Source of the DNA: Singulisphaera acidiphila DSM 18658
GTDB taxonomy: Bacteria; Planctomycetota; Planctomycetia; Isosphaerales; Isosphaeraceae
Assembly: GCF_000242455.2 (NCBI RefSeq)
Contig: NC_019892.1
Coordinates: forward strand, 8,690,744-8,754,743
DNA length: 64,000 nucleotides
Direction: 5' to 3'
In this document: piece by piece, positions 11,039-39,109 of the stretch
Numbering within the stretch: position 1 is the stretch's first letter
Layout of the letters: each line of letters begins with the position of its first letter
The notes under the pieces: generated by a model
Databases searched by the model: none
What the model was told of the DNA's origin: nothing
Seen by the model: the letters and a program-made list of their open reading frames with translations, nothing else
Position numbers and translations under genes: made by a program

Positions 11039-11902
11039 TTATGATCGGCCAGAGTTCGACGACTTCGCCGGCGCCGCCAGGAGCGTCTTGACGAACGCAA
11101 GGTCGGCCGCAGTCTGCTCGATCAGTTCGGGGGTAGTCAGGTCGCGCCAGCTATGCGGCCCTTTGTATTCGCTATGGAGCGAGATCGGCCCATCAAATTT
11201 GGCCTGCCTGAGGGCGTCGAACACCTCGGGCCAGGCGACCAGGCCATCGCAAAGCGGGACCTGTTGAGCCTGCCAGACGGCCTTGACCTTCCCCGGCTCG
11301 GACTTCCAGCCGAAGTCCTTGACCGCGACGAGCCGAATCTGTGGACCCAGCAGCTCGAGGTTCTGCCGCCAGCCTCCGCTCCCCCCTTCCACAGCCGCAT
11401 GGCCAGGGTCGAAGTAGGCGGCGAGCCGGCTCGGGTCACGGTCGTGGAGCAAGTTCACCACCACTGCCGGCTGGCAGTTCACATAGCCGGGGCCGCTGTG
11501 GTTGTGGATCCCGAACGTGACCTTGTACGACTCGGCGAGTCGTTCCAGCCCATCGAGGTTCTGTTTCGCCTGCTCGATCGATTCGCGGAGCTTCCCCTTG
11601 GGCCCATTCCAGTAGCCCAGCTTGAGCAGCCGGATCCCTTGCCTGGCCGCCGCTTCGACGATCGCCTCGGCATGAGGGTCGGTCGCCCGCGTGATCGCCG
11701 TACTCGCCATGGGCACGTCCAACCCCTGGGCGTGGATCGCCGCCACGGCCGCCGGCAGGTCTTTCCCGACCGTGGCGGGCTCAACGTGCCCTTTGGGCCG
11801 AACGGTCAGGTCCACCCCGTCGAACCCAAGCGCCTTGATCCGCTCCGCCGCCTCGCCGACCGAAAATTCTTGCAGCATCTTCGAGAACATCACGAGTGGC
11901 AT
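11039..11902 (-). CDS. Sugar phosphate isomerase/epimerase-like TIM-barrel protein
   Basis: Xylose-isomerase-like TIM-barrel (AP endonuclease 2 fold) of 287 aa, probably acting on a sugar or inositol-type substrate with a divalent metal. Recognisable pieces are IKALGFDGVDLTVRPKGHVE near the start, FGIHNHSGPGYVN with a metal-site histidine, YFDPGHAAVEGG with an Asp/His pair, and LHSEYKG with the final acidic ligand. No signal peptide, so cytoplasmic. It converges on the sirtuin gene and has no obvious pathway neighbours. The exact reaction is unknown. Confidence 0.85.
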   Translation of the reverse strand: MPLVMFSKMLQEFSVGEAAERIKALGFDGVDLTVRPKGHVEPATVGKDLPAAVAAIHAQGLDVPMASTAITRATDPHAEAIVEAAARQGIRLLKLGYWNGPKGKLRESIEQAKQNLDGLERLAESYKVTFGIHNHSGPGYVNCQPAVVVNLLHDRDPSRLAAYFDPGHAAVEGGSGGWRQNLELLGPQIRLVAVKDFGWKSEPGKVKAVWQAQQVPLCDGLVAWPEVFDALRQAKFDGPISLHSEYKGPHSWRDLTTPELIEQTAADLAFVKTLLAAPAKSSNSGRS

Positions 11903-12129
11903 GGTCTCGTCCTCGATCCGCTGGAATCACAGAAATCCAGAGCATCCGACATCAACGTGAGCCTGCCAGGTAGGAATGAGACTGGCATCTGGCCCACATG
12001 AGGATGCGAACGAGCCGCCATCGTAACCAGCCCCAACTCTCGGACGTAGCCCCCACACGCTGCCAACCCGAAGTTGCTCGACCGGCCGGACCGTTCGGAT
12101 TCACACCGATCGGCCCGGTCGTGGGAGAT

Positions 12130-13077
12130 TCACTCCGCTGTTGGAGTGCGAAGCTTGCCCGCGTTCGTATTCTCGGCAAGGTCGGCGATCATCTCGTGGA
12201 CGGCCCCCTCGATCGCCGCTTGCCACTCCGCGCCGTACTTGGCGCGAGCGGCGGGCCGGCTGTAAGCGTAGGTCAGTCCGCGCGAGTTGTTGATGATCGC
12301 GCCGAGGCCATCGGTATCGAATGCCGGGGCAACATCCTTGGAAGAGCCTCCTTGAGTGCCGTAGCCTGGTACCAGGAACGGAATGCCGGGCAGTGTCGCG
12401 CGCAGTTCGGCGAGTTGATCGGGATAAGTCGCGCCGACCACCGCGCCGAGCAGGCTATAACCGGATGCGCCTCGATAGGGCTCGGCCCATTGAGCCAAGC
12501 GTTGAGCGACGTGTTGGTAGATTGCCTTCCCATCAGCGATCAGGTCCTGAAACTCACCGGCCGAGGCGTTGCTCGTCCGGACGAGGGCGTAGAGTCCTTT
12601 CCCCTCGCGTGCGGCCACCTTGACGAACGGGGTGATTCCATCGCTCCCGAGGTAAGGATTGACCGTCAAGCCGTCGGCATTCCATGAGGGTTCGAAGCTC
12701 TCGCCCACGGGAACCTTGCCGAGATAGGCCCGGGCATAGGCGTCGGCCGTGGAGCCGATGTCGTTCCGCTTGCCGTCGATCAAGACGAGCAGCCCTTTCC
12801 CTTGGGCGTACTGCGCGGTGGCGTGGAGCGCCGCAAACCCCTCGGGTCCATAGGCCTCATAGAACGCGGCCTGGAATTTGACGATCGGCACGAGCGGAGC
12901 GACCACATCGACCACGCCGTCCCCAAACACGCGCAGCGACTCCGCCACCCCCGGCCGATCGCCAGGGAACTTGTCGAGAAACTCAGGTGGCAAGTCCTCG
13001 GGCCGCGGATCGATCCCCACACAGATCGGGGTTCCCACTCGCTTTACGGCTGCATTCAAGCGATCCGCGAAGTGCAC
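12130..13077 (-). CDS. pyrF: Orotidine 5'-phosphate decarboxylase, PyrF type 2
   Basis: Last step of de novo UMP synthesis: decarboxylates OMP. The 315-aa protein shows GTPICVGIDPRPEDLPPEFL at the start, KFQAAFYEAYGPEG, and the catalytic DGKRNDIGSTADAYARAYLG (Lys and Asp of the DxKxxDI motif), which identifies the longer type 2 (mycobacterial-like) subfamily. LVPGYGTQGG near the end binds phosphate. Translation starts at a GTG at 13077 with GAGAGGAA upstream. It diverges from the tRNA-Pro promoter. The pyrC gene elsewhere in the window belongs to the same pathway but is not linked. Confidence 0.95.
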   Translation of the reverse strand: MHFADRLNAAVKRVGTPICVGIDPRPEDLPPEFLDKFPGDRPGVAESLRVFGDGVVDVVAPLVPIVKFQAAFYEAYGPEGFAALHATAQYAQGKGLLVLIDGKRNDIGSTADAYARAYLGKVPVGESFEPSWNADGLTVNPYLGSDGITPFVKVAAREGKGLYALVRTSNASAGEFQDLIADGKAIYQHVAQRLAQWAEPYRGASGYSLLGAVVGATYPDQLAELRATLPGIPFLVPGYGTQGGSSKDVAPAFDTDGLGAIINNSRGLTYAYSRPAARAKYGAEWQAAIEGAVHEMIADLAENTNAGKLRTPTAE

Positions 13078-13101
13078 GACGTAATTCCTCTCAGTACCGC
13101 A

Positions 13102-13129
13102 TTGACAGATCCAGGGCTCCCCCTATAAT
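13102..13129 (+). promoter_or_regulatory. Consensus sigma-70 promoter for tRNA-Pro
   Basis: TTGACA at 13102-13107 and TATAAT at 13124-13129, both perfect consensus hexamers, spaced by 16 bp. The first tRNA-Pro gene begins 33 bp after the -10 box. It lies just outside the 203-bp duplication that carries the two tRNA copies. Confidence 0.8.
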
Positions 13130-13162
13130 ACCGACTCAACACGAGGTCGTCTGCAAAGAATT

Positions 13163-13237
13163 CGGGGCGTAGCGCAGTTTGGCTAGCGCGCTAGACTGGG
13201 GGTCTAGAGGTCGTGGGTTCAAATCCCGCCGCCCCGA
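13163..13237 (+). tRNA. tRNA-Pro (anticodon GGG), copy 1
   Basis: 75-nt cloverleaf. The acceptor CGGGGCG pairs perfectly with CGCCCCG, followed by discriminator A. The anticodon arm is CTAGA-CTGGGGG-TCTAG with anticodon GGG, and the T arm is GTGGG-TTCAAAT-CCCGC. CCA is not encoded. Reads CCC and CCU. A consensus promoter lies upstream and an intrinsic terminator follows. Confidence 0.97.
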
Positions 13238-13261
13238 CTTGTCTGTGAGAGATTTCAATGA

Positions 13262-13303
13262 AAAGGGGCCTACGGCTCATCACCGTAGACCCCTTTCCTT
13301 TTT
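13262..13303 (+). terminator. Intrinsic terminator after tRNA-Pro copy 1
   Basis: Stem AAAGGGG-c-CTACGG with CCGTAG-a-CCCCTTT around a 7-nt loop, followed by cctttttc. Confidence 0.85.
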
Positions 13304-13365
13304 CGGGTCTCGTCGCGTTGGGATCGAAAAGTACCGACTCAAGACGAGGTCATCTCCAAAAAAAT

Positions 13366-13440
13366 CGGGGCGTAGCGCAGTTTGGCTAGCGCGCTAGACT
13401 GGGGGTCTAGAGGTCGTGGGTTCAAATCCCGCCGCCCCGA
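13366..13440 (+). tRNA. tRNA-Pro (anticodon GGG), copy 2
   Basis: Identical in all 75 bases to the copy 203 bp upstream, so structurally intact. No promoter was seen between the preceding terminator and this gene; expression may depend on read-through. Confidence 0.96.
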
Positions 13441-13461
13441 CTTGTTCTAACTGACGATCAG

Positions 13462-13504
13462 AAAGGGGCTTGCGGCGAAAGACGCAAACCCCTTTCTTGT
13501 TTTT
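13462..13504 (+). terminator. Intrinsic terminator after tRNA-Pro copy 2
   Basis: Stem AAAGGGG-cTTGCG with CGCAA-aCCCCTTT followed by cttgttttt. The outer stem matches the first terminator, while the inner stem and loop have diverged. Confidence 0.85.
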
Positions 13505-13636
13505 CGGGAAGACTCCACACATCATTCCCCCCACACCATTGGGCTCACGTGGCATTCACGCTGCCCCCGTCGCTGGGAGTTGGCGCACACGCCAAGCGTG
13601 AGCCGCTGGGGCGAGACAGATCCTCGGGATGGTCGG

Positions 13637-14629
13637 TTAAGGAACCCATCCGGGCAACGCAGCGGCCTGCTTCACCCAGGTCGCCATCTGTGCCTCGTCG
13701 AGTTCGTCGCCTTCGTGGATGTCGATCCAACGCGCGTCCTTACTGCGCACCGTGCCACCGGGCGGGACTGGTCGTAGCGACGTGCCGCAGAAGAAGGTCA
13801 CCTTGACGTAGCGGGTTAAGACGTGGAACGACAGGAACCAGCCCTGGCCCTCGATGCCGTAAAATGGCGAGTTCCACTTCACGGCCTTGCGCACGTTGGG
13901 GATGGTCCGCACGATCAGCGCGTCGAGGCGCTTCCCGAGGTCGCTCTTCCAGCTCGGCATCGCTGCTATGTACGCCTGCACTGGGGCATCGCCGTCTGCC
14001 TTCGCGATTTTCGGGTTGCCACCCGACAGGAGGATGACCTCCTCGCCGTTTCGCCCTTTGATCGGCTTGGCCTCTTTCGCACCTGGCTTGGCCTTCTTCG
14101 CACCTGGCTTCGGCAGGGACTTGGACTTCGGGGTGCTGGACCGGAGATTCTCCGCGACCGCGGCCTGGACCAAGGCCTTGAACGCCTCAGCGTCGAGCAC
14201 CTCTCCCTCCCGGATGTCGATGGCGCGACGCGTGTTTCCCTCGAGGCTGGAGTTGAAGAGCCCCCGAGGGTCCTCCAAGGAGGCACCTCGGGCGAAGGTC
14301 AGCTTGATTACCTGTTTGTAGGCCTCTCCCGTGCAGATGTTCCCAGCGCGGGACCAAACGGGTGTGCCCATCCATTTCCACTCCTCCATGATGTCCAAGT
14401 CCGCCTCGTGGATGATGCGGCGGACCTCTGCCAAGGTCTCGGCTCGCCAGCCACCCAGAGACCGGATCCGCTCGTCGATGAGACGAGAGGCCACCTTCCC
14501 GGTCGCGTGCTTCGCTTCCTCACCCGGTTTGACCTTCGCGCCTGGCTTCGGCGGGGATTTGGGCTTGGTGGCCGACTTGAGTGGCTTGTTCGCGCGCGAC
14601 GTGTCCTTAGCCTTGCTCTCGGTCATCAT
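13637..14629 (-). CDS. Protein with two tandem DUF1801 (YdhG-like) domains
   Basis: A 330-aa cytoplasmic protein. A Lys/Pro/Ala-rich leader (residues 1-45) precedes a first DUF1801-type unit (ETLAEVRRIIHEADLDIMEE, WKWMGTPVWSRAGNICTGEA, GSSLEG-like segment ending RRAIDIREGEVLDAEAFKAL). A second Lys/Pro-rich linker with repeated KPGAKKAKPGAKEAKP leads to a second unit (PSWKSDLGKRLDALIVRTIP, VKWNSPFYGIEGQGWFLSFH, ARWIDIHEGDELDEAQMATW). DUF1801 proteins have a frataxin-like fold and are poorly characterised. The basic linkers could bind nucleic acid, which is inference. Stand-alone gene. Confidence 0.85.
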   Translation of the reverse strand: MMTESKAKDTSRANKPLKSATKPKSPPKPGAKVKPGEEAKHATGKVASRLIDERIRSLGGWRAETLAEVRRIIHEADLDIMEEWKWMGTPVWSRAGNICTGEAYKQVIKLTFARGASLEDPRGLFNSSLEGNTRRAIDIREGEVLDAEAFKALVQAAVAENLRSSTPKSKSLPKPGAKKAKPGAKEAKPIKGRNGEEVILLSGGNPKIAKADGDAPVQAYIAAMPSWKSDLGKRLDALIVRTIPNVRKAVKWNSPFYGIEGQGWFLSFHVLTRYVKVTFFCGTSLRPVPPGGTVRSKDARWIDIHEGDELDEAQMATWVKQAAALPGWVP

Positions 14630-15154
14630 TCGTCCTTATTTCGTTGGACGTTTCTCGAGTCACTCTAGGTGTTCATCCCAGAATCGCTCATTAGTATGCC
14701 ATCCGGTCCCGTACGGGCCTGAACTGCGTAGGGACGAGGCGATAAACAGCGTTCTCGACCTTGCCGCTGTTCGGTTACGCGGCCGGCATCGGGCAGGAGG
14801 CGCAGCGAGACGGCCGGGCTTGCAATTGGGAATTACCACCATGTAGCCAATGCCTGCAAGTGGTTGCCTACGTGTCAATGTCAATTTAGGCTTCACGAAA
14901 GGCATCTGCCGGGTAGGCCCGACTCTCTGAGCTCAGCCTGTCGCTGCCTGGCACAAGGTGGCACGGATTGTCGTCGGTAATCCCTGAATGCCGGTGCAAA
15001 AAAGTTCTAACAGCCTCCTATCATCCCGACTGATTGGCAACAGCAAATCCCGCCAACCGTCGCGTCAGCGACGGTTGGCGGGATTTGAGCATTTTGAGAG
15101 AAGCAGGAAGTTCATCGAAGCCCCGCCACCGAGGCTTTCAGGAACAGCGGAGTT
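14630..15154. other. Intergenic region with a perfect inverted repeat
   Basis: 525 bases between two minus-strand genes. No gene is supported. It contains the 19-bp inverted repeat listed separately; nothing else was recognised. Confidence 0.5.
15044..15087. repeat. Perfect 19-bp inverted repeat with 6-nt loop
   Basis: Left arm caaatcccgccaaccgtcg, loop cgtcag, right arm its exact reverse complement. No T-run follows on either side, so it is not a classical terminator. It could be a REP-like palindrome or an mRNA-stabilising stem at the 3' end of the SRPBCC transcript. Confidence 0.9.
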
Positions 15155-15571
15155 TCAGCCAGCCACGCTCGACGCGATGGCCGACGAAATGCGCTCCAAG
15201 ACCTTTGGCCAACCCGCCCCCATACCCTCGAAGGCCGTTTTGCCCAGAGGGGAGTCGAGGTCGAAGCCCGAGTGCTCAAGGTGCAGCCGCGTGCCCGAGT
15301 TCTCGGGTTCAAGACGCCAGGTGATGGTCGTATCGAGCGTACCAGGCGCGAAGCTATAGCTCAGGAGACGCTCAGGTTCCACGGCAATGACTTCGCACGG
15401 TTGTTGCCCCCATGGCCCCATATCGAGCGTGAACCGATGGCCGACGACGGCTCGTACGTCACCCGCTGCCCACCATTTCGCATGAATTTTGGGGTCGGTC
15501 AGCGCTTGCCAGACCTTCTCCGGCGATTGACTGACAAATTGCGACAATCGAATTATGCCTGGTTGAATCAT
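15155..15571 (-). CDS. SRPBCC (AHSA1-type) domain protein
   Basis: A single helix-grip domain of 138 aa, likely cytoplasmic, binding an unknown hydrophobic ligand or acting on a toxic compound. It begins IIRLSQFVSQSPEKVWQALT then DPKIHAKWWAAGD, the typical start of AHSA1/START-like proteins, and ends with the long C-terminal helix GWPKVLERISSAIASS. It follows the ArsR gene with two bases between stop and start, and its ribosome site (GAAGAGGAA) lies inside the ArsR coding end. ArsR-SRPBCC pairs are common in bacteria. Confidence 0.92.
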   Translation of the reverse strand: MIQPGIIRLSQFVSQSPEKVWQALTDPKIHAKWWAAGDVRAVVGHRFTLDMGPWGQQPCEVIAVEPERLLSYSFAPGTLDTTITWRLEPENSGTRLHLEHSGFDLDSPLGKTAFEGMGAGWPKVLERISSAIASSVAG

Positions 15572-15573
15572 TG

Positions 15574-15882
15574 CTATTCCTCTTCCAAAGTACGATCAAA
15601 GGCTTGCAGCCGCTCACGCCAATAATGCTCAAATGGCTTTAGCCACTCATTCACTTCAACGAGACGTGCCGGCTCGATGTGGTAGTACCGTTCGCGGCCG
15701 CGCCGCTCGTCCCGAACCAGCTCGGCGCTCCGCAACACCTGCAAATGTTCCGAAACGGACGGGCGATGCAGGCTAAACTCATCAACCAGGTTATTGACGG
15801 TGTACGGCCGTTTGAGCAGGAGTTCCAGAATTCGACGGCGAATCGGATTCGCCAAAACCGCGAAAACATCGGGGGTCGTCAT
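15574..15882 (-). CDS. ArsR-family transcriptional regulator
   Basis: Winged-helix repressor of 102 aa, starting MTTPDVFAVLANPIRRRILE and followed by the recognition unit VNNLVDEFSLHRPSVSEHLQ VLRSAELV. The ArsR metal box ELCVCDL is absent, so it is not a metal sensor of the SmtB/ArsR type; it belongs with ArsR regulators that precede SRPBCC genes. The wing is RRGRERYYHIEPARL. It is translationally coupled to the SRPBCC gene and probably controls the pair. Confidence 0.92.
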   Translation of the reverse strand: MTTPDVFAVLANPIRRRILELLLKRPYTVNNLVDEFSLHRPSVSEHLQVLRSAELVRDERRGRERYYHIEPARLVEVNEWLKPFEHYWRERLQAFDRTLEEE

Positions 15883-16369
15883 GCCCGCATTATGCGTCGG
15901 ATATTTCCGACCTGTCAATAACAGAGACGAGAGAAAATCGGAACCGGAGTGACTGCTGCAAGAGAACGTGGAGCAAATTTCGGGAGGCAGCCCAAGTTGG
16001 ATACGGCGTGGGAAACCGCCCGTGCAAAGGTTCAGTCCACCGTCTGATCGACGAGAAGTCGTTGCTCGAACGATTCCGCTGCGCTACGATGAATGGATGG
16101 CCTGGGCGGAGAGCAGGGCAACGTGGTGGAACGACTCGAGCGCCGACCCAGGGGCCAAGACCGAAGGAGGGGCGGCACAATGCCGCCCTGTCATTCCTTC
16201 GGGATTGGCAAGAAAGCGGTCAATCTTTGCATATAGATCAAAAGTCCACCATTTTATCTCCCAACCCCGGTTTCTTCATTTCACGCTGAACCATTAGTTC
16301 AACCAAGAGAGATCACTTCGACTGCTGTACATTCGACGAAGACATACGCATGAGATCAAGAGAGACGCT
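15883..16369. other. Intergenic region upstream of the acetyltransferase
   Basis: 487 bases between divergent genes. No supportable gene. A 7-bp hairpin (gggcggc-acaat-gccgccc, 16170-16188) is present without a T-run. The last 150 bases are AT-richer and probably carry the acetyltransferase promoter. Confidence 0.4.
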
Positions 16370-16918
16370 ATGGATTTGGTGATTAAAGCACTTGACGGAC
16401 AGACCGCCGGGGATCCTCACAAGCTCAATGATTCATTCCTGGTGGAGTCCGAGTTGACTCTCTCCGCCGAGGGTGGCGTCATCCGCTACGAGGTTGTCCC
16501 GGTCCCCCCCTACAAGAAATCCTACGCCGACGACGGCTTGGCCGATTACCAGAACGCCCCTGACATCGCTGTTTTCCTTGCGTATCTCGATGGCCTGATC
16601 GCAGGCAGGGTCGTCTTATCGGAGGGATGGAACCGGTACGCCTGGATCGAAGACCTTGTCGTTGACGCCCGCTGTCGGAGGTTGGGAGTTGGCCGGGCAT
16701 TGATGGACCGTGCTATCGCCTGGGCAAGCGAGCGAGGGTTGCCAGGGATCAGGCTCGAAACGCAAAGCAACAACGTCCCCGCCTGCAAATTCTACGAGGT
16801 GTGTGGGTTTCAGCTCGGGGGATTCGACCAACACCTTTATCGGGGTCTGGACAAAGCAACTACGGAGATTGCCCTCTTCTGGTATCTTCCGATCCGAGCG
16901 AAGGGATCGCACGTCTAG
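16370..16918 (+). CDS. GNAT acetyltransferase, streptothricin-acetyltransferase-like
   Basis: Cytoplasmic acetyl-CoA-dependent N-acetyltransferase of 182 aa. The order and spacing of motifs resemble streptothricin acetyltransferases (Sat family): PPYKKSYADDG, EGWNRYAWIEDLVVDARCRR then LGVGRALMDRAIAWA (acetyl-CoA loop), GIRLETQSNNVPACKFYEVC GF, and the terminal EIALFWYLP. Sat proteins share NRYA.IED, LETQ.NN..ACKFY..CGF and FWYL. Self-resistance or drug detoxification is therefore possible, but the true substrate could be another amine. Stand-alone gene; no resistance island or mobile element adjoins it. Confidence 0.88.
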   Translation: MDLVIKALDGQTAGDPHKLNDSFLVESELTLSAEGGVIRYEVVPVPPYKKSYADDGLADYQNAPDIAVFLAYLDGLIAGRVVLSEGWNRYAWIEDLVVDARCRRLGVGRALMDRAIAWASERGLPGIRLETQSNNVPACKFYEVCGFQLGGFDQHLYRGLDKATTEIALFWYLPIRAKGSHV

Positions 16919-30546: not shown

Positions 30547-31578
30547 TCACAACACCCGCCATGGTAATTCCTCGCCTGCCAGGAACGGCGTCATCCCCTC
30601 GATCATCCGAGGGACGACCCATGGCTCGCGAGCCAACTCCATGCGGCCCTCGTTCAACGGCAGGCCGTAGAACTTGGCCCCGTTGACCGAGGTGAAGTCC
30701 TCCAGCCGATCCAGCGCCTCTTCCGCGTCAAACCTTGACGCGAGCGCCGCCATCGCGACGGGCGACGAGAACACCCCAGCAGCACAGCAGCCAGCGTCCA
30801 CGTTGAACTTGGCGGCGGTTGGATGGGGAGCAGAGTCGGTGCCGAGGAAGAACTTGCCCGTGGGCTCCAATGCCGCTCTCAAGAGGATCTCCCGATCCTC
30901 ATCGAATTTGGCGATCGGAGAATAGAAGTAGTGCGGGTGCAGTTGCCCGCCTCCCCCCCACCGGCCCCGGCCTCCAAGGTCATCCAAGGTCAGGTACAAA
31001 TGATGCACTGTAATCGTGCCCGCAACCGTGTCGGGGCAACTGCGGACCCACTCGACTCCCTCGCGCGTGCTGATGTGCTCCATCACCTGCCTGAGCTTCG
31101 GAAAGCCGTCCACCACCCGATGCATTTCGGGAAGCATTCTCTGCTCGGCGGTCAGCCATCCCGGCCCCGGCAGTTCCCCGTGCCAGCAGAGCACCATGCC
31201 GGATTGCTCCATGGCCGCGAAGGTATCGCCCAGTCCCCGCAACTGCTCGACCGTCACGCCGCCATGCGAGCCAGTGGTGACACCTTGTGGGTACACCTTG
31301 GCCGCCACCACACCGTGCTCCTTGGCTTCGTGGATCGTTGCCGGGGTCGTGCGTTCGGTCAACCGTATGGTCATCAGCGGCTGAAACTCAAACTCCGAGC
31401 ACTTACTGATACGATTACGAAGATCACTGGCCTGCGGTCCCGTGTCGATCGGCGGAACGTTTGGCATCACCAACGCTCGCTCGAAGTGCTTCGAGGTGTG
31501 ATTGACGACCTTTCGGAGCATCTCACCGTCGCGTAGATGCACATGGAAATCGTCTGGTCGTCGGATATTCAGGATCAT
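30547..31578 (-). CDS. pyrC: Dihydroorotase, PyrC type II
   Basis: Converts carbamoyl-aspartate to dihydroorotate in pyrimidine synthesis, with two zinc ions. The 343-aa length matches E. coli PyrC. Visible ligands are DDFHVHLRDG (HxH), VVAAKVYPQGVTTGSHGG with the carbamylated lysine, CWHGE, VMEHISTREGV, ITVHHL and GTDSAPHP with the catalytic Asp. The ATG at 31578 with GGGGAAG upstream begins MILNIRRPDDFHVH, as in type II enzymes; the longer open frame upstream is discarded. Stand-alone gene. Confidence 0.95.
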   Translation of the reverse strand: MILNIRRPDDFHVHLRDGEMLRKVVNHTSKHFERALVMPNVPPIDTGPQASDLRNRISKCSEFEFQPLMTIRLTERTTPATIHEAKEHGVVAAKVYPQGVTTGSHGGVTVEQLRGLGDTFAAMEQSGMVLCWHGELPGPGWLTAEQRMLPEMHRVVDGFPKLRQVMEHISTREGVEWVRSCPDTVAGTITVHHLYLTLDDLGGRGRWGGGGQLHPHYFYSPIAKFDEDREILLRAALEPTGKFFLGTDSAPHPTAAKFNVDAGCCAAGVFSSPVAMAALASRFDAEEALDRLEDFTSVNGAKFYGLPLNEGRMELAREPWVVPRMIEGMTPFLAGEELPWRVL

Positions 31579-32386
31579 TTTGCTTCCCCAAATACGATTC
31601 GTGCGTGCCTGATGAGCGACCGGATCCGCCAGGGATACAATCGGACCACCGATCCCAGTTCCACCCCTTGAGGCGCCCAGCCAGGCCATCCCGGCGACAT
31701 TGCAGCGGGACAGGATACCGCCACATGCGACGATGAGCTTGGTGATGGCCCTCTTGCGAGGCCTTGCTAATCCACTCAGCCACCAGCGGCGTCAACGGCT
31801 TTCCACTCAGGCCCCCGCCATCATACTGTGTCAAGGGACTGTGATCGCTCCCAAACAGACCCCGCCGGTCGATCCGCTCTGGCACGCTGGGCGGAACGAC
31901 CCACCGCCATTGACCTCAACGGCGTTGCGAGACGGTACGGGAAGGATGCGTCTTGGGTACCGAGCCGGTCGGGCCTTGATGGAGAGGCCCGCTTCAATCT
32001 CGGAGCGATGCTCGGCCGTGTGGACAGTATCTGCGAGTTCCTCGTGATAAAGTGGGGCGTAATCAGTTCTTCCCTGTCCCTCCTCTGCACCGTCTTCTTG
32101 CTCATCCCCCAGCGCTCGGCCAACTCACTACTAGGTGGAGAACGGTTTGATCTCGGTGACAACGTCCATTAAGGTGATCCCTGATCAGTATGCTCTTGTC
32201 CTCGTGGTGGTGGCGAAGCAGAAGTCTTCCCCCCTACCTCTCATGAATCGGTCAGCTTTGCCGATCTGCAATGCGGGGCGGTCTGGTCAGGATTTTCCTT
32301 TTGGTACTGCATTGGCCACATGAGCCCCTGCTGACGAATGTAAACCCTTGTTTGCGTGGGGACTTCGACGATATAGGGAGGAGCCT
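31579..32386. other. Intergenic region upstream of the amidohydrolase cassette
   Basis: About 810 bases between divergent genes. Frames of about 110 codons exist on both strands but neither shows a ribosome site, a known motif or sensible composition. No hairpin terminator or promoter consensus was recognised. Confidence 0.4.
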
Positions 32387-33172
32387 GTGGAGGTCTGGGA
32401 TCTGCACTGCCATCTCTCCGGGGTTCCCGGCCGGACACCGGATGAGCGGATGGCTCAGCTCATCAAGTACGCCGACCGGATGGGGATTGCCCGAATTTGT
32501 GTCTATATGGGAATGAACTGGTCGTACGACCCTTCACCCGAGGAATTCCGCAAACAGAACGACGAAGTCCTCCAGGCGTTGAGTCACTGGCACGACCGAG
32601 CGTTGGGGTTCGTCTACCTCAACCCGAAGCACGTCAAGGAGAGCCTCGCCGAGCTGGACCGCTGCGTTCGCGACGGCCCCATGGTCGGCGTCAAGCTCTG
32701 GGTGGCGCAGCATGCCAATGCCCCGGAGTTGGACCCGATCGTCGAGCGAGCGACCGAGCTCAACGCAGTTATTTTTCAGCATACCTGGATCAAGGCGACG
32801 GGAAATCTCCCAGGCGAATCGACCCCGATGGATCTTGCGGCCCTGGCGGCCCGACACCCGAAGGCGGCGCTGATCTGCGGCCATACCGGGGGGGATTGGG
32901 AGTTGGGAATCCGGGCCGTCCGAGGCCAACAGAACGTGGCAGTGGACCTGGCCGGAGGGGATCCGGCGGCCGGGATCACCGAAATGGCGGTGCGCGAGCT
33001 GGGCGCAGAGCGCGTGATTTACGGCAGCGACGCCGGTGGGCGGAGCTTCGCGTCGCAACTCGCCAAGGTGCAAGGGGCCGACGTCCCCGACGCGGCCAAG
33101 AAGCTCATCCTCGCGGGAAACCTCAAGCGGCTGCTCGGGCCGATCCTCCAGGCGAAAGGGGTCCGGCTGTGA
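32387..33172 (+). CDS. Amidohydrolase (Amidohydro_2 family), metal ligands intact
   Basis: TIM-barrel metal-dependent hydrolase or decarboxylase of 261 aa, cytoplasmic. The start is a GTG at 32387 with GGGAGGAG five bases upstream, giving (M)EVWDLHCHLSG. Ligand positions are intact: HCH after strand 1, FQHTW, ICGHTGGDWE and IYGSDAGGRSF with the final Asp. The stop overlaps the GTG of the next gene by four bases. The next gene encodes a homologue of exactly equal length that has lost the ligands, so the two may form a heteromer. Substrate unknown. Confidence 0.88.
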   Translation: MEVWDLHCHLSGVPGRTPDERMAQLIKYADRMGIARICVYMGMNWSYDPSPEEFRKQNDEVLQALSHWHDRALGFVYLNPKHVKESLAELDRCVRDGPMVGVKLWVAQHANAPELDPIVERATELNAVIFQHTWIKATGNLPGESTPMDLAALAARHPKAALICGHTGGDWELGIRAVRGQQNVAVDLAGGDPAAGITEMAVRELGAERVIYGSDAGGRSFASQLAKVQGADVPDAAKKLILAGNLKRLLGPILQAKGVRL

Positions 33173-33954
33173 CGCCTCGACTCATCGACACCAACGTGAA
33201 TCTCTCGCGCTGGCCAACCCGCCGAGTGCGGAACGACGAGACAGCCCGGCTCGTGGCGACCTTGAGCGGTCATGGCGTGGTCGAGGCCTGGGCCGGTAGC
33301 TTTGATGCCCTGCTCCACAAGGACCTGGCCGGAGTCAATACACGGCTGGCTCACGAGTGCCGCGCCCAATCACGGATCCGTCTCGTTCCGTTCGGCTCGG
33401 TCAATCCGGCTCAGCCCGACTGGGAGGAGGACCTCAGGCGGTGCGTCGAGGAGCATGGGATGCCAGGCATCCGCCTTCACCCGAACTATCACGGGTATCA
33501 GCTCGACCACCCGGCGTTCGCCCAGCTTCTCACGCTGGCGGCGAAGCGCGGCTTGGTCGTCGCACTCTGCCTTCAGATGGAGGACGAGCGCATGATGCAC
33601 CCCGCGTTCCGGGTCACTCCCGTCAATCCGGCTCCACTCGCGGCGGTGATCGCGAAGATTCCAGGGATCCGTCTGCTCTTGCTGAACGCGCTGAACGTCA
33701 TTCGCGGGGCATCGCTTCAAAAAGTGGTTCAGGCCGGCGACATCTCGGTGGAGATCTCCGCACGTGAAGGCGCCGGGGGCGTGGCGAGCCTGCTCGAGGA
33801 AGTGCCCCTGGATCGCGTCCTCTTCGGGTCCCATGCGCCTTTCCTCTATTTTGAGTCGGCCATCCTCAAGCTCAAGGAGTCGGACCTGACCCCGGCACAA
33901 CTGCGGGCGGTGCAGGAACAAAACGCGCGGCGGTTGGTATCCGCAGCGCGTTGA
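33169..33954 (+). CDS. Amidohydrolase homologue lacking metal ligands (probable pseudoenzyme)
   Basis: A 261-aa TIM-barrel protein of the same family and length as the preceding gene, starting at a GTG that overlaps the previous stop (GTGA). Each ligand position differs: the HxH site reads IDTNVNLSRW (NxN); the mid-barrel His sites read CLQMEDE and LLLNALN; the final Asp position reads FGSHAPF. GIRLHPNYHGYQ is retained. Catalysis by the usual metal mechanism is therefore unlikely. A structural or regulatory subunit for the active partner is the simplest reading. The DegT-type gene follows after 42 bases. Confidence 0.85.
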   Translation: MTPRLIDTNVNLSRWPTRRVRNDETARLVATLSGHGVVEAWAGSFDALLHKDLAGVNTRLAHECRAQSRIRLVPFGSVNPAQPDWEEDLRRCVEEHGMPGIRLHPNYHGYQLDHPAFAQLLTLAAKRGLVVALCLQMEDERMMHPAFRVTPVNPAPLAAVIAKIPGIRLLLLNALNVIRGASLQKVVQAGDISVEISAREGAGGVASLLEEVPLDRVLFGSHAPFLYFESAILKLKESDLTPAQLRAVQEQNARRLVSAAR

Positions 33955-33996
33955 ACCCACGAATTCAATTCTCAAGGCCTGAGCAGGATTTCTTCC

Positions 33997-35328
33997 ATGA
34001 CAGACAAGAATCCTTTCTCCCGACGCCAGTTCCTTGCCGCGACCTCGGGTGTCATGGGAGCCGCCAAGCTCTACGGTCAGGGGGCGGCGGGCGAGGCGAC
34101 CCCCGCCGCAAAACTTGCCCTTCAAGGGGGGCCGAAGGCCGTGCAAGGGGGCCTGCCGCAACTCGTCCGCTGGGGTCAGCCCGAACGGGAGCGGATGAAC
34201 GCCCTCATCGATCAGACGAACCTCTTCTACTGGAAGGGGCCACAGACGACCTTGCTGATTGATCGATTTCGACAGACCTGCCCGCTTGAGCACGTGATGA
34301 CCTGCTCGTCCGGCACCGCGGCCCTGCACATCGCCGTTGCGGCGGCCGGGATCGAACCGGGGGACGAGGTCATCACCAGTCCGATCTCCGACATTGGCAC
34401 TGTGATCGGGGTGATCTATCAGCAGGCGGTCCCCGTCTTCGCCGACCTCGGACGGAACACGTATAACCTCGATCCCGAAGACGTGGCGCGACGGATCACG
34501 CCCAAAACCAAGGCAATTATCGCCGTTCACCTCGCAGGCAACCCGTGCGACATGCACGCCCTGAAAACATTGGCCGATCAACACAACCTGGTCCTCATCG
34601 AAGACTGCGCCCAGGCCTGGGGAGCTAAGTTCCGCGACAAGCCGATCGGCACGGTTGGACATATCGGCTGCTTCTCGTTGCAGGCCGCCAAACACGTCAC
34701 CAGCGGCGAAGGAGGCGTGGTGGCCTCGAACGACCCACGGTTCGGCCCGCTCCTCCAGCGATTCGGGGACAAGGGGATGGACCGACTCGCCAAAGGGGGA
34801 TTGTTCGAGGTCTTCGCCACGAACTACCGGATGAGCGAACCGCAGGCGGGCTTCGCCGCCGCCCAACTCACACGCGTGGAAGGGATCGCGGAGAAACGCT
34901 CGCGACTCGGCAATCTCCTCAACGACAAAATCGCCAGCACGCCCGGAATCGAGCCCCATCAGGTTCATCCCGACGACCGCTCCACGTACTGGTTTTTGAT
35001 GTTCCGCGTCCGACCCGAGTCCTTCAAGTGCGAGCGGGCCGAGTTTGTCAAGGCCCTCGTCGCAGAAGGCGTTCCCGCCTCGGCTGGATATATTCCCGTG
35101 CCTCTCTACGGCAACCCGGTCTTCCAGAAACATGGCTTCTTCGCCGGGCGTTGGCCCCTCAAAGAACAGGGCCTGACGACGATGGACTACGCCCAGGTCG
35201 CCTGCCCCGAAGCGGAAGCAATCCTCAAGACGGGCGTCCGGGTGACAATTCACGAGGGGATGGGCGAGGCCTACGTCCTGAGCCTGGCCACGGCCGTCCG
35301 GAAGGTGGCGACCCACTACGCCCACTGA
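33997..35328 (+). CDS. DegT/DnrJ/EryC1-type PLP aminotransferase with Tat signal
   Basis: A 443-aa PLP enzyme of the DegT/StrS aminotransferase family. The N-terminus NPFSRRQFLAATSGVMGAAK is a twin-arginine signal, rare in this normally cytoplasmic family. The fold is clear: CSSGTAALHIAVAAAGIEPG DEV, AIIAVHLAGNPCDMHAL, LIEDCAQAWGAKF and FSLQAAKHVTSGEGGVV with the PLP lysine. C-terminal FVKALVAEGVPASAGYIPVP completes it. It probably ends the three-gene cassette begun by two amidohydrolase genes. It may transaminate a keto-sugar or act on a cell-envelope compound; export as a folded holoenzyme is inference. Confidence 0.9.
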   Translation: MTDKNPFSRRQFLAATSGVMGAAKLYGQGAAGEATPAAKLALQGGPKAVQGGLPQLVRWGQPERERMNALIDQTNLFYWKGPQTTLLIDRFRQTCPLEHVMTCSSGTAALHIAVAAAGIEPGDEVITSPISDIGTVIGVIYQQAVPVFADLGRNTYNLDPEDVARRITPKTKAIIAVHLAGNPCDMHALKTLADQHNLVLIEDCAQAWGAKFRDKPIGTVGHIGCFSLQAAKHVTSGEGGVVASNDPRFGPLLQRFGDKGMDRLAKGGLFEVFATNYRMSEPQAGFAAAQLTRVEGIAEKRSRLGNLLNDKIASTPGIEPHQVHPDDRSTYWFLMFRVRPESFKCERAEFVKALVAEGVPASAGYIPVPLYGNPVFQKHGFFAGRWPLKEQGLTTMDYAQVACPEAEAILKTGVRVTIHEGMGEAYVLSLATAVRKVATHYAH

Positions 35329-35440: not shown

Positions 35441-37048
35441 TCAGCGCGAGATCGCGAGAGGTCGATAGATGAACCGGGAGGTCGTTTTACCCCCGTTGGA
35501 AAGCGCGGCGCCACCGCCGATTGCGGTCGGGTCAATGACGAATTCCGGCTGGGCCAACAGCTTCAAGCCGATCAACCCCCCCGTCCCAAGGCCGAACAGG
35601 TTGAGCCGGTCCGGAATGTCGAGCAGGTCAAGAATCACGATGCCACCGAACCCAACAATCGTATAGGTGACCGGCGTTTGCCCGACAATCGCCGAAAGTA
35701 ACGCACTCAGCCCCCCCGGCGTCGTCGTCTTCTGGTAGAGAGGAATAATTCGCGGTTGCCCTTTGATCGAGCCAAGCAGTGTTTTCACGGTCGCGGTAAG
35801 TCCCGCATCGCCGTTGATGGTCAGGGTTCCGTCGTTGCCGAGTTTAAAACTCCCCCCCATTGAGGCTAAGTCGGTCGCGTTCGGGCCATACTGGAGCTGA
35901 CGAACAAAGTCGGCGTTGCTTCCGTTGCCGTTACCGATGTAGATCGTGCCGAAATTGCCGATCCGCACCGGGTTCCCCAGAATTGGCAGCTTGTTCAAGA
36001 TCTCGAGCTTGATCCCGAGCAGGGCAAGAATCGGGTCGAGAATGATGTCGGGGACCAATAAGGGGATGAGCAGCGTCTCCTTGATTCGGTCGCCGGGCAG
36101 CAATGCGGCCAACGCAGGGTCGAGAGGAACGCTCAGGGGGTTCGAGAGATTCGTCGGGTTGAACGTGTATCGGGTGGGATCGAGCAGGATCGAAAGTGCG
36201 CTCCCCGTGTTGCTTAAAAGGGTACCGAGGGAGAGGTCGGCAAACTTGACTCGGGCGGAATAGTCGTTGCCGGTTGGGGCGATCGTCGGATCGTATCGGT
36301 AAAGGTCGAGTGAGCTCAGGCCGGCGGCCATCGCCCCGTAGGTATTGACGTCCATCGCAAAGGGCAAGAGCTTGCTCGTTGCCGGACCATTGGGATCGAT
36401 CCTGAATCCAATGATGTTGTCTTCGTAGGTTGCCGTGGCAGTCGCCGTGAGACCGATATTTTTAAATCCGTTGACCCCTCCAAAAAAGAGGGGAAGTGCC
36501 CCATTGCGCTGTCCATCACGATGTGCGGTGATCTGAACGGAATTCGCCGACTTGTACGTGGAGTTGACCGTGGGCGGGGTCACAAACGGCACAGGGATGC
36601 TCGTGACCGCCGGCAGGAAAAGCAACGGGGGGCTGAAAGCGACGGGGGGCGTTCCCGTATTGAGAACAAGCGCACTGCGATCCCCCATCGGGTTCGCGAG
36701 ATAGCCCACAACGATGTCGCCGCTCGTGCTATTCGGATTATTCGCGTCGAGTGCGATGCTGGCGCCGCCCGCCTGGTTCGAAGTAGCCAACGACTGGGCG
36801 AGGCTCCGTGCGGCCACGATCTCGGTGGACTGATCGGGCGACCCTTTAAGCTCATCACGATCGAGAAGTTGAGACGCGGCCGCCACAGCTGCGGAGTCGG
36901 CCACGTTCTGAAGTTGGGTCTTGGCCAGGGTGATATTGCCGGTGTCGACCGCCAGCCCAACGAATCCGATCAAGACGACCAACAAGACAGCGACGAGCAC
37001 CAGTATGGCCCCGTGCCGGGTTGGCGACGACCGATGATGAATACGCAT
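35441..37048 (-). CDS. TadG-like secreted pseudopilin-associated protein
   Basis: A 535-aa protein of the TadG type (Flp pilus assembly). After a basic start, RHGAILVLVAVLLVVLIGFV forms the TM anchor, followed by GLAVDTGNITLAKTQLQNVA DSAAVAAASQLL, the classical TadG pattern. The rest is a Gly/Asn/Thr-rich extracytoplasmic domain with a late hydrophobic stretch (LIPLLVPDIILDPILALLGI). GGGAGAGG precedes the ATG at 37048. It follows two TadE-like genes in the same direction. No tadA ATPase, tadB/C or flp pilin gene is in the window, so its role in a pilus is inferred. Confidence 0.82.
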   Translation of the reverse strand: MRIHHRSSPTRHGAILVLVAVLLVVLIGFVGLAVDTGNITLAKTQLQNVADSAAVAAASQLLDRDELKGSPDQSTEIVAARSLAQSLATSNQAGGASIALDANNPNSTSGDIVVGYLANPMGDRSALVLNTGTPPVAFSPPLLFLPAVTSIPVPFVTPPTVNSTYKSANSVQITAHRDGQRNGALPLFFGGVNGFKNIGLTATATATYEDNIIGFRIDPNGPATSKLLPFAMDVNTYGAMAAGLSSLDLYRYDPTIAPTGNDYSARVKFADLSLGTLLSNTGSALSILLDPTRYTFNPTNLSNPLSVPLDPALAALLPGDRIKETLLIPLLVPDIILDPILALLGIKLEILNKLPILGNPVRIGNFGTIYIGNGNGSNADFVRQLQYGPNATDLASMGGSFKLGNDGTLTINGDAGLTATVKTLLGSIKGQPRIIPLYQKTTTPGGLSALLSAIVGQTPVTYTIVGFGGIVILDLLDIPDRLNLFGLGTGGLIGLKLLAQPEFVIDPTAIGGGAALSNGGKTTSRFIYRPLAISR

Positions 37049-37178
37049 GCTTGACGCCTCTCCCACAGACTTCGCTGGCATCCCCGGCTCCCTTGGGAGT
37101 TCTGGGCGGCTGGCATCGAGGCGACGCGCCCCGAGATACCCGAATCCGGAACATTCCAGGGGCGCCACGACGAACCGA

Positions 37179-37616
37179 TTAGTTCGCTTCAGCGATCACA
37201 ATCGCTTTGGCATTCAATGGCATTGTCTGAGGCAAGATCCCAAAAGAGGGAATCATCACAGAATAGGTTGACTGAATCTGAACGGCGATCGGGTCGCCGA
37301 CCAAGGCCGTGGTCCACACGCCGTTGTTGTTGCCGGACGCGTCGGCCTTATAGATCGACACGGAAAGGCCGGCCCCCCCTTGACCTGCAAGTTGTTGGAT
37401 CACAAAGGCTTGGATATCGGACGTCGCCGCCGTCCGTTTCGAATTCACAGCCATTCGCGCTCCCGCTCGCGCCGCGTTGATGACAAGTTGGCGGGCCATC
37501 TCGTACCGGCCGTATTCCAGGATCGCGGAGACGAAGTACATGCAAGGCAGGAGCGCGAGGGCCATCTCCAGCGTCGCCGCCCCTCGACGCTTCGTTCGCC
37601 GACGTGGGTGCACCAT
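37179..37616 (-). CDS. TadE-like pseudopilin, second of two
   Basis: A 145-aa membrane-anchored protein. RRTKRRGAATLEMALALLPC MYFVSAILEYGRYEM is the TadE signature: basic residues, GA.(T/A)(L/V)E cleavage-like motif, then a TM helix and a tail with arginines (INAARAGARMAV). The mature part ends with mixed beta segments. GGGGAGAGGAG precedes the ATG at 37616. It stands between another TadE-like gene and the TadG-like gene and is probably co-transcribed with both. It likely takes part in a Tad/Flp-type secretion or adhesion apparatus. Confidence 0.85.
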   Translation of the reverse strand: MVHPRRRTKRRGAATLEMALALLPCMYFVSAILEYGRYEMARQLVINAARAGARMAVNSKRTAATSDIQAFVIQQLAGQGGAGLSVSIYKADASGNNNGVWTTALVGDPIAVQIQSTYSVMIPSFGILPQTMPLNAKAIVIAEAN

Positions 37617-37706
37617 GAGCGAATCTCCTCTCCCCGTCCTTCGCCACCGCACCGACTCAGGGGAGTCGCTGAACAACCCGCTTCAACCCACCGCGACCGT
37701 CGGCCG

Positions 37707-38138
37707 TCAGCTCGACTCTTTCACGTAGCACCAGACAGAACTCGCGGCCCAAGTCGGCGCAGCCCCAAGCGGTTTAGGGGAGTTCAACCATTGGACGTCG
37801 CCGGACGGAACGGACACTGATACCTGGATGCGATCCCCACGCTTGGCGTAGCTCAGATCGATCGCCCCGGGCGTGTCAAGATTCTGGATGGTGACGACGA
37901 CGGACTGGGTCGGCATCCCGGCATTGGAGAGGATGGATAGCATCATGCTCCGTACCGCGGAGTCGGTCGCCAAGCCGGTCGACGCCATCCGACCTCCTTG
38001 CCGGGCCGCCTGTGTTAAAAGTTGCTGAGCCTCGAAGAGGCTTCCCAACTGCCAGGTGCCCAGCAACAAGCCGACAAAAAAGGGGAGGCAGCCAGCCAAC
38101 TCTACAGCAGCAACTGCACGTCTTTTTCTACCAGACAT
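37707..38138 (-). CDS. TadE-like pseudopilin, first of two
   Basis: A 143-aa protein. It begins MSGRKRRAVAAVELAGCLPF FVGLLLGTWQLGSLF, the TadE start with E five residues into the helix, then AQQLLTQAARQGGRMASTG. The mature part is beta-rich (SVVVTIQNLDTPGAIDLSYA) and ends near a cysteine. The open frame continues about 80 codons upstream without coding character, so the ATG at 38138 is preferred although its ribosome site is weak. It is the first gene of the TadE-TadE-TadG run. Confidence 0.82.
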   Translation of the reverse strand: MSGRKRRAVAAVELAGCLPFFVGLLLGTWQLGSLFEAQQLLTQAARQGGRMASTGLATDSAVRSMMLSILSNAGMPTQSVVVTIQNLDTPGAIDLSYAKRGDRIQVSVSVPSGDVQWLNSPKPLGAAPTWAASSVWCYVKESS

Positions 38139-39109
38139 ATTGAGTCTCAAATCCGAACCCTCCAGTCTACTGGAAAGGCAGCGCAGGCAAGGGAGCAGCA
38201 CAAAACCTCCCCAAAAGGTTGGTCGTCGCTCCCCCAGGGCAAACCCCACGAAAACCAATGGTCGGCATCGACCCTCTGAGGCGCAAAAGACGAGGTGCGC
38301 AACCACGCTCTTGGTGGCGATCCAAGCGATGGAATCGAGATGGGAGATCGAGGCATCATCGCTGCCTCCCCCTCGTGGCATTCACCAGAGAAAAAAAGAG
38401 GACTGCAAACGACCTTACCGATCGGCCCCCCCCTCCTCCCATTCTCAAAACTCAACGCGTGCCCTGGAACGACCCACCCCGCACCAAGGTTAAGAGCCAA
38501 CCTTCGCACGCTCACCAACGTATCAGTCACGGTCACAGAGCCACTCAGGAGGTCTCATTTCCGGCTCGAGCTGGCCCCAACGCCACGATCGATTCCGCAA
38601 ATGCGATCCTCCGGATCTCACCTGCTAAAATGAAACGTGTTCCTTTAGTTAAACACAGATTGTTCAACACCACAGTTTCTTGAGTGCAGCCGGCTCGCAG
38701 CTTCGCCGTCACCAAATGGGGGTGGATCAGCCGAATCTGCACTCTAAATAAGAGTAACATTTGCCCCCCATGTATGAGAGCATGGGTCACAGCCCAAAAA
38801 CCGTCTATGGGCAAAATACTCAAAGTGTCCTAGACTTTTCCTTAGTCCATCATGCGAACAATCTCTTCGTGTCCTATACAAACATGATTTTCGGTCGCCC
38901 TAAACCTAATTTTGGGCCGCCTCGCAACGATCACAAACCATGATCAGGCCCTGCTTTTCTCAAGGCGTAGGTTCTCTTTAATAAGCAATAGGCATCTTTA
39001 TCCCGGGAGTCTAAACCAAAGTTCGCCTCACAATATGCGGTAATCGCCCCCTCCCCCCTCTGTGTCTCACTCGATGCCGAGAACGTCACTTGACCGAGGG
39101 ATTTTTGCA
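38139..39109. other. Long intergenic region between Tad genes and response regulator
   Basis: About 970 bases between divergent genes, the longest gap in the window. The last 500 bases are clearly AT-richer than the surroundings. No gene is supported: short frames on both strands lack ribosome sites and family motifs. It must carry promoters for the Tad run and the regulator. No consensus promoter pair or array of repeats was recognised. Confidence 0.45.

Follow-up and report, generated by a model that had tools for sequence, protein, structure and literature searches.

Intact and ligand-less amidohydrolase homologues form a gene pair conserved in four bacterial phyla, in many relatives with a Tat signal on one partner or the other, never on both

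Introduction

The Amidohydro_2 family (PF04909) includes the dihydroxybenzoate decarboxylases, ACMSD, and the protein of PDB entry 3cjp; the title of PDB entry 4ifk describes a zinc-dependent decarboxylase of this family that cannot do without an arginine from the neighboring subunit. Among the enzyme/pseudoenzyme heteromers, of which plant PDX1.2 is an example, an active protein and its inactive paralogue are kept together, and a literature search at the level of titles found no amidohydrolase example. In heterodimers exported by the twin-arginine translocation (Tat) system, such as HybOC and PaoABC, one subunit bears the signal and the unsigned partner is exported along with it, as described in two reports (PMC10924467 and PMC4273604). 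Finally, the DegT/DnrJ/EryC1/StrS aminotransferases, including L-glutamine:inosose aminotransferases, share the PF01041 domain and the pyridoxal phosphate (PLP) lysine.

Here we describe a locus of Singulisphaera acidiphila DSM 18658 that resembles each of these systems in part. It was analyzed within a 64,000-nucleotide stretch of contig NC_019892.1 (hereafter, the window) and encodes two amidohydrolase homologues, AH1 and AH2, followed by a DegT-type protein. AH1 and AH2 have the fold of the Amidohydro_2 enzymes and AH1 has their ligand set as well, but both are shorter than most members of the family (about 261 versus 320 to 370 amino acids) and only about 15 to 20% identical to them, and AH2 lacks the ligands. 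The subunit-crossing arginine of 4ifk offers a model for a shared AH1/AH2 site, and retention of an active with an inactive paralogue recalls PDX1.2. One-signal export, proposed here for many relatives, would liken the pair to HybOC and PaoABC; these, however, are redox enzymes with a fixed signed subunit, whereas AH1 and AH2 are homologous barrels between which the signal switches sides. The DegT protein has the PF01041 domain and PLP lysine in common with the described aminotransferases but differs from them in its Tat signal and in reaching no NCBIfam equivalog. A title-level search of the open-licence literature found no account of either the AH1-AH2 pair or a Tat-exported DegT protein.

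Results

Organization of the locus

The source genome comprises 9.76 Mb; of the named organisms, Singulisphaera sp. GP187 is the closest to it, with 85% identity across AH2. The initial annotation had noted two adjacent homologues of 261 residues with a 4-base overlap, which is borne out by the ORF coordinates (Table 1) and by profile comparison of the two proteins (hhalign probability 98.9). Given this homology and the recurrence of the pair in four phyla, the arrangement cannot be attributed to chance. AH2 and DegT are separated by 42 bases. The gene upstream of AH1, on the opposite strand (30547-31689), encodes an amidohydrolase-like protein with sub-threshold Pfam matches, which reads as a dihydroorotase, and the genes downstream of DegT lie on the minus strand, so that the trio looks like a transcription unit of its own.

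Table 1. Genes, motifs and key residues of the AH1-AH2-DegT locus, in window coordinates
Feature	Position	Strand	Description and basis
AGGGAGGAG	32375-32383	+	Ribosome-binding-site-like, 5' of the AH1 GTG start; direct sequence reading
AH1	32387-33172	+	GTG 32387 to TGA 33172; 261-residue Amidohydro_2 protein with intact metal ligands
AH1 HxH (H7, H9)	32405-32413	+	Sequence and alignment
AH1 K103	32693-32695	+	Strand 4, possible bridging lysine; K in 102/110 rows
AH1 H132	32780-32782	+	End of strand 5; alignment, model
AH1 H166	32882-32884	+	After strand 6; H in 110/110 rows
AH1 D215	33029-33031	+	Strand 8; D in 106/110 rows
GTGA overlap	33169-33172	+	AH1 stop and AH2 start; direct reading; 4-base overlap likewise in the second trio of the genome
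AH2	33169-33954	+	GTG 33169 to TGA 33954; ligand-less Amidohydro_2 paralogue, 261 aa
AH2 N9-x-N11	33193-33201	+	Replaces HxH; N9 in 102/110 rows, position 11 variable
AH2 R102-L-H-P105-N-Y-H108	33472-33492	+	End of strand 4; R/K 110, P105 110, H108 108 of 110 rows
AH2 E138-D139-x-R141	33580-33591	+	After strand 5; E138 101, D139 108, R141 110 of 110 rows
AH2 N173	33685-33687	+	Replaces strand-6 His; alignment
AH2 H222	33832-33834	+	Replaces strand-8 Asp; alignment
DegT	33997-35328	+	443-residue protein of PLP aminotransferase fold, bearing a Tat signal
DegT SRRQFL	34018-34035	+	Twin-arginine motif; kept in 26/26 orthologues with readable N-terminus
DegT Lys232	34690-34692	+	Presumed PLP lysine; matches the lysine of SLQATK in an alignment to PDB 8gyh

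An intact and a ligand-less barrel

AH1 and AH2 both belong to the Amidohydro_2 family, with PF04909 scores of 73.5 and 72.5 bits, respectively, against a cut-off of 26.4, and no NCBIfam model gives a name to either. The AlphaFold2 model of AH1 (pLDDT 94.3) is closest, among solved structures, to 3cjp (Z 26.9, rmsd 2.3, 234 residues). Alignment placed the HxH, His, His and Asp ligands that had been read from the sequence at H7, H9, H132, H166, and D215, and this set is complete in 104 of the 110 aligned rows, the window included. The exceptions are L084, with a tyrosine at position 132, the broken gene of L117, and four loci of a single, inverted clade (L024, L032, L137, and L138), in which the HxH motif and the Asp are lost and AH2 has a Tat signal. 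An active AH1 is thus not essential everywhere, and the pair of this clade may have another function, perhaps in binding. Elsewhere, the sequence makes AH1 a likely metal-binding, active member of the amidohydrolase superfamily.

In AH2, the corresponding places are occupied by N9, N11, N173, and H222, and the segment after strand 5 (L-C-L-Q-M-E-D) contains no histidine, in agreement with the original reading of NxN, Gln/Glu, Asn, and His. This state was found in every relative tested: neither the HxH motif nor the strand-8 Asp is present in any of the 110 rows, and a lone histidine at a ligand place occurs in one row each, at position 9 in L044 and position 173 in L086. The residue equivalent to AH1 K103 is R102. 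Across all 110 rows, among which identity falls to about 27%, D7, P105, and R141 are invariant and R102, H108, D139, E138, and N9 are strongly kept, which argues that AH2 is not decaying. The AlphaFold2 model of AH2 (pLDDT 93.2) is close to several structures, among them 2dvt, 3s4t, and 3cjp, which are tied within one Z unit (24.4 to 23.9); the match to 2dvt has Z 24.4 and rmsd 2.6 over 248 residues. In the model, several of the conserved residues sit where barrel strands end or in the loop that comes next, which would place them on the active-site side of the superfamily.

Conservation of the AH1-AH2 pair

Scanning of one genome per species, for 84,980 species, yielded 292 matches, of which the best 80 loci were kept; the organisms recorded are Planctomycetota, Verrucomicrobiota, Acidobacteriota, and Hydrogenedentota, along with a few doubtful bins. 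Within these best 80 of 292, 72 loci have AH1 immediately upstream of AH2 in the same orientation, and in 34 of them the two genes abut or overlap; two of the remaining loci are cut by a contig end and six show no AH1 in that place despite room for it, with AH1 located further off or inverted in two of the six (L092 and L123). Across 294 genomes of the phylum, AH1 was detected in 27 (E<=1e-35) and AH2 in all of these 27 (E<=1e-18), with cut-offs picked after the tables had been seen; one genome (G235) has AH2 without AH1. Far from being scattered in relatives, the AH1-AH2 pair is a conserved core unit.

Tat signals on the pair

Tat signals were called in 126 non-duplicate loci with a rule-based procedure requiring twin arginines, a hydrophobic stretch, and an upstream start codon, for which the background in the other two reading frames was 6 hits in 456 trials. 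A stricter rule missed clear signals, and the looser one was used for the counts, with five corrections by eye (signal present in L072, L104, L121, and L025; false hit in L106). The resulting set of 106 pairs leaves out L117 with its broken AH1, L126, in which AH1 is cut by a contig end, two fusions, three edge loci, 14 loci with no same-strand AH1 within 4 kb, and three duplicate loci.

Among these 106 pairs, the signal is on AH2 alone in 36, on AH1 alone in 25, on neither protein in 45, including the window, and on both in none. Hence exactly one partner is signed in 61 pairs, and 8.5 doubly signed pairs would be expected if the two signals were independent (Fisher test, 6e-6, shared ancestry being ignored). 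The three-state label changed at least 14 times on a tree of the 110 rows, as estimated by a quick method with several forks left open. In addition, L137 (6345-8276, minus strand) and L138 (6500-8431, plus strand) encode Tat-AH2-AH1 fusions in a single ORF, which count as one event because the two genomes are sisters. The location of the signal on either partner but never on both, its repeated relocation, and the Tat-AH2-AH1 fusion are new observations. The presence of one signal and never two in many relatives suggests that AH1 and AH2 work and travel as one complex. The AH1 half of the fusion lacks HxH and the strand-8 Asp and keeps both other histidines.

The DegT protein and its link to the pair

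The third protein of the locus is a DegT-type aminotransferase by its PF01041 match (274.5 bits) and PLP lysine; it reaches no NCBIfam equivalog cut-off, the best being PseC with 194.4 of the 423.5 bits required. Its N-terminus, MTDKNPFSRRQFLAATSGVMGAAKLYGQG, combines a twin-arginine motif with a hydrophobic stretch, both conserved, as expected of a predicted Tat substrate, and scores below threshold with the Pfam TAT_signal model (13.2 versus 22.7 bits). In the motif count of 26/26, the first match in L073 was spurious and the true motif was identified separately, and L087 is without an N-terminus. Assignment of a catalytic lysine and a twin-arginine signal to this protein therefore held: the domain score, the alignment of Lys232, and retention of the motif in relatives all agree. 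The envelope location initially proposed fared unevenly, being favored for DegT of the window by its signal but not demonstrably so for AH1 and AH2 of the window, neither of which carries one.

The earlier proposal of a three-protein pathway did not hold as a general rule. Among the best 80 of 292 loci, DegT orthologues (over 50% identity) lie directly downstream of the pair in only 22, which rules out a universal trio, and elsewhere in three more; they are absent from 53 loci with at least 1.5 kb of downstream sequence, and two loci have less. A link was nevertheless apparent among closer orthologues, since DegT matches of at least 60% identity occur in 5 of 59 related genomes, all five of which have the pair; DegT is next to AH2 in four of these, in one case across a contig break, and apart from it in G045.

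The same genome contains a second AH1-AH2-DegT trio (L140 5088-12256; C1 about 819,000-826,300, the trio itself at about C1:820,800-824,000), 30 to 37% identical to the first and arranged in the same order, with Tat signals on AH1 and DegT; it is located behind DHDPS-like and epimerase-like genes. Six strong DegT matches are encoded in the genome (E<=1e-60), and only the two in the trios have a Tat signal. The second trio and this restriction of the signal support a lasting functional link between the pair and DegT, despite the patchy distribution of the latter.

Of the 26 pairs labeled with DegT, a set that includes the window, 21 have one signed AH partner besides DegT, so that the pair and DegT would both be outside. 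The five with no AH signal are the window, L057, L008, L068, and L110; L014, from the same clade, is a sixth, its DegT being adjacent on another contig. Riding of the pair on DegT was ruled out as a general rule, given that 40 of the 45 unsigned pairs lack a DegT orthologue at their locus; the 40 include at least one contig-break case, L014.

Discussion

The suggestion that the two amidohydrolase homologues form a catalytic/pseudoenzyme heteromer gained support from the conserved pair and the consistently ligand-less AH2, which make it very probable on sequence grounds. The fuller reading that we favor, and consider probable, is that of an AH1-AH2 heteromer that is co-exported in many relatives by Tat hitchhiking. 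AH1 would work as a metal-dependent enzyme of the amidohydrolase superfamily, and AH2, an ancient ligand-less paralogue, would be a structural or regulatory subunit of its heteromer, with D7, R102, H108, D139, and R141 probably serving assembly, substrate binding, or the active site of AH1. Most simply, the two proteins would fold jointly in the cytoplasm and be exported by way of a single signal; in some lineages, DegT would act in their pathway as a Tat-exported PLP enzyme. The heteromer accounts for the 72/80 adjacency among the best 80 of 292 loci, the 27/27 co-occurrence, the one-signal pattern, the fusions, the invariant residues of AH2, and the second trio; against it stand the 45/106 unsigned pairs, among them that of the window, the six of the best 80 of 292 loci that lack an adjacent AH1, and the loss of AH1 ligands of the L024 type. 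A more specific version, possible if somewhat doubtful, is a split-site enzyme, in which the invariant residues of AH2 complete the AH1 active site in trans and only the assembled heteromer works and is exported, leaving the Tat signal free to be on either chain; in the window lineage, the unsigned pair may be carried out by the Tat signal of DegT, within a complex of all three proteins.

Conservation of AH2 could also mean that it is itself a metal-free enzyme that uses the newly conserved residues to catalyze a second step beside AH1. Metal-free catalysis does occur in the superfamily, the case in point being LigI, a pyrone-dicarboxylate lactonase, and the invariance of D7, P105, and R141 and near invariance of H108 and D139 in 110 rows, with several of these residues modeled on the catalytic face of the barrel, would suit such a role. 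LigI uses the strand-8 Asp, however, which is absent from AH2 in all 110 rows, and a subunit role would explain one-signal export and the fusions no less well, so that we regard this alternative as unlikely. One-sided signals might instead reflect a division of labor between AH1 and AH2 acting apart in two compartments, as only one partner is signed in 61 of the 106 pairs and the complex is itself deduced; yet the at least 14 label changes would have swapped the compartments each time, and the fusions place both proteins on one chain, making this arrangement quite improbable. The mixed catabolic neighbors, including sulfatase, Gfo/Idh, and c-type cytochrome proteins, would be at home in an ordinary operon for degradation of sugar acids or amides, with AH2 being no more than a chaperone or a duplicate in decay, an account that is hardly credible, the invariant residues and cross-phylum conservation of AH2 being at odds with decay.

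The initially proposed chemistry of hydrolysis followed by transamination would be plausible. With low confidence, we would guess that the substrate is a small sugar derivative with an amide or lactone group, that it is processed in the envelope, and that DegT attaches or removes an amino group. AH1 and AH2 appear to be a widespread and apparently uncharacterized enzyme/pseudoenzyme pair, in which a single export signal seems to have moved between the partners many times, and provide a natural test set for Tat recognition of assembled complexes and for the retention of ligand-less paralogues.

Wider module and additional observations

A nitrilase-fold protein (CN_hydrolase) is encoded just before AH1, its gene ending within 1.6 kb of AH2, in 12 of the best 80 of 292 loci, and is often preceded by a beta-propeller protein. 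The Glu-Lys-Cys triad is intact in all 12 long copies, and several N-termini, inspected by eye, suggest secretion. The genome of the window encodes a 56% identical nitrilase-fold homologue far from the trio, and a search of the 64-kb window with 12 query proteins found no nitrilase or beta-propeller remnants. These little-studied phyla would gain a defined envelope module, amenable to biochemical work, consisting of a secreted nitrilase-fold enzyme, AH1, AH2, and Tat-DegT.

Several other features were recorded. Three consecutive DegT genes with Tat signals are found in L113 (15906-20435, minus strand), 5 to 10 kb from an AH1-AH2 pair. In L078, L096, L100, and L133, DegT is missing and the gene directly downstream of AH2 encodes a large DUF7133/HEAT/cytochrome c-type protein, with domains assigned from the L127 copy. 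ORF translations of L203 at about 11500-16700 (C1 about 474,500-479,700) repeat short motifs in several frames, in the manner of a large CRISPR array or a comparable direct repeat. The window itself further encodes an amidase (PF01425; 39961-41844, plus strand) that may have a twin-arginine region close to the N-terminus (STRRATLKTLAALGIG), and three ORFs (35441-38381, minus strand) that by eye resemble TadE/TadG-type pilus or envelope proteins.
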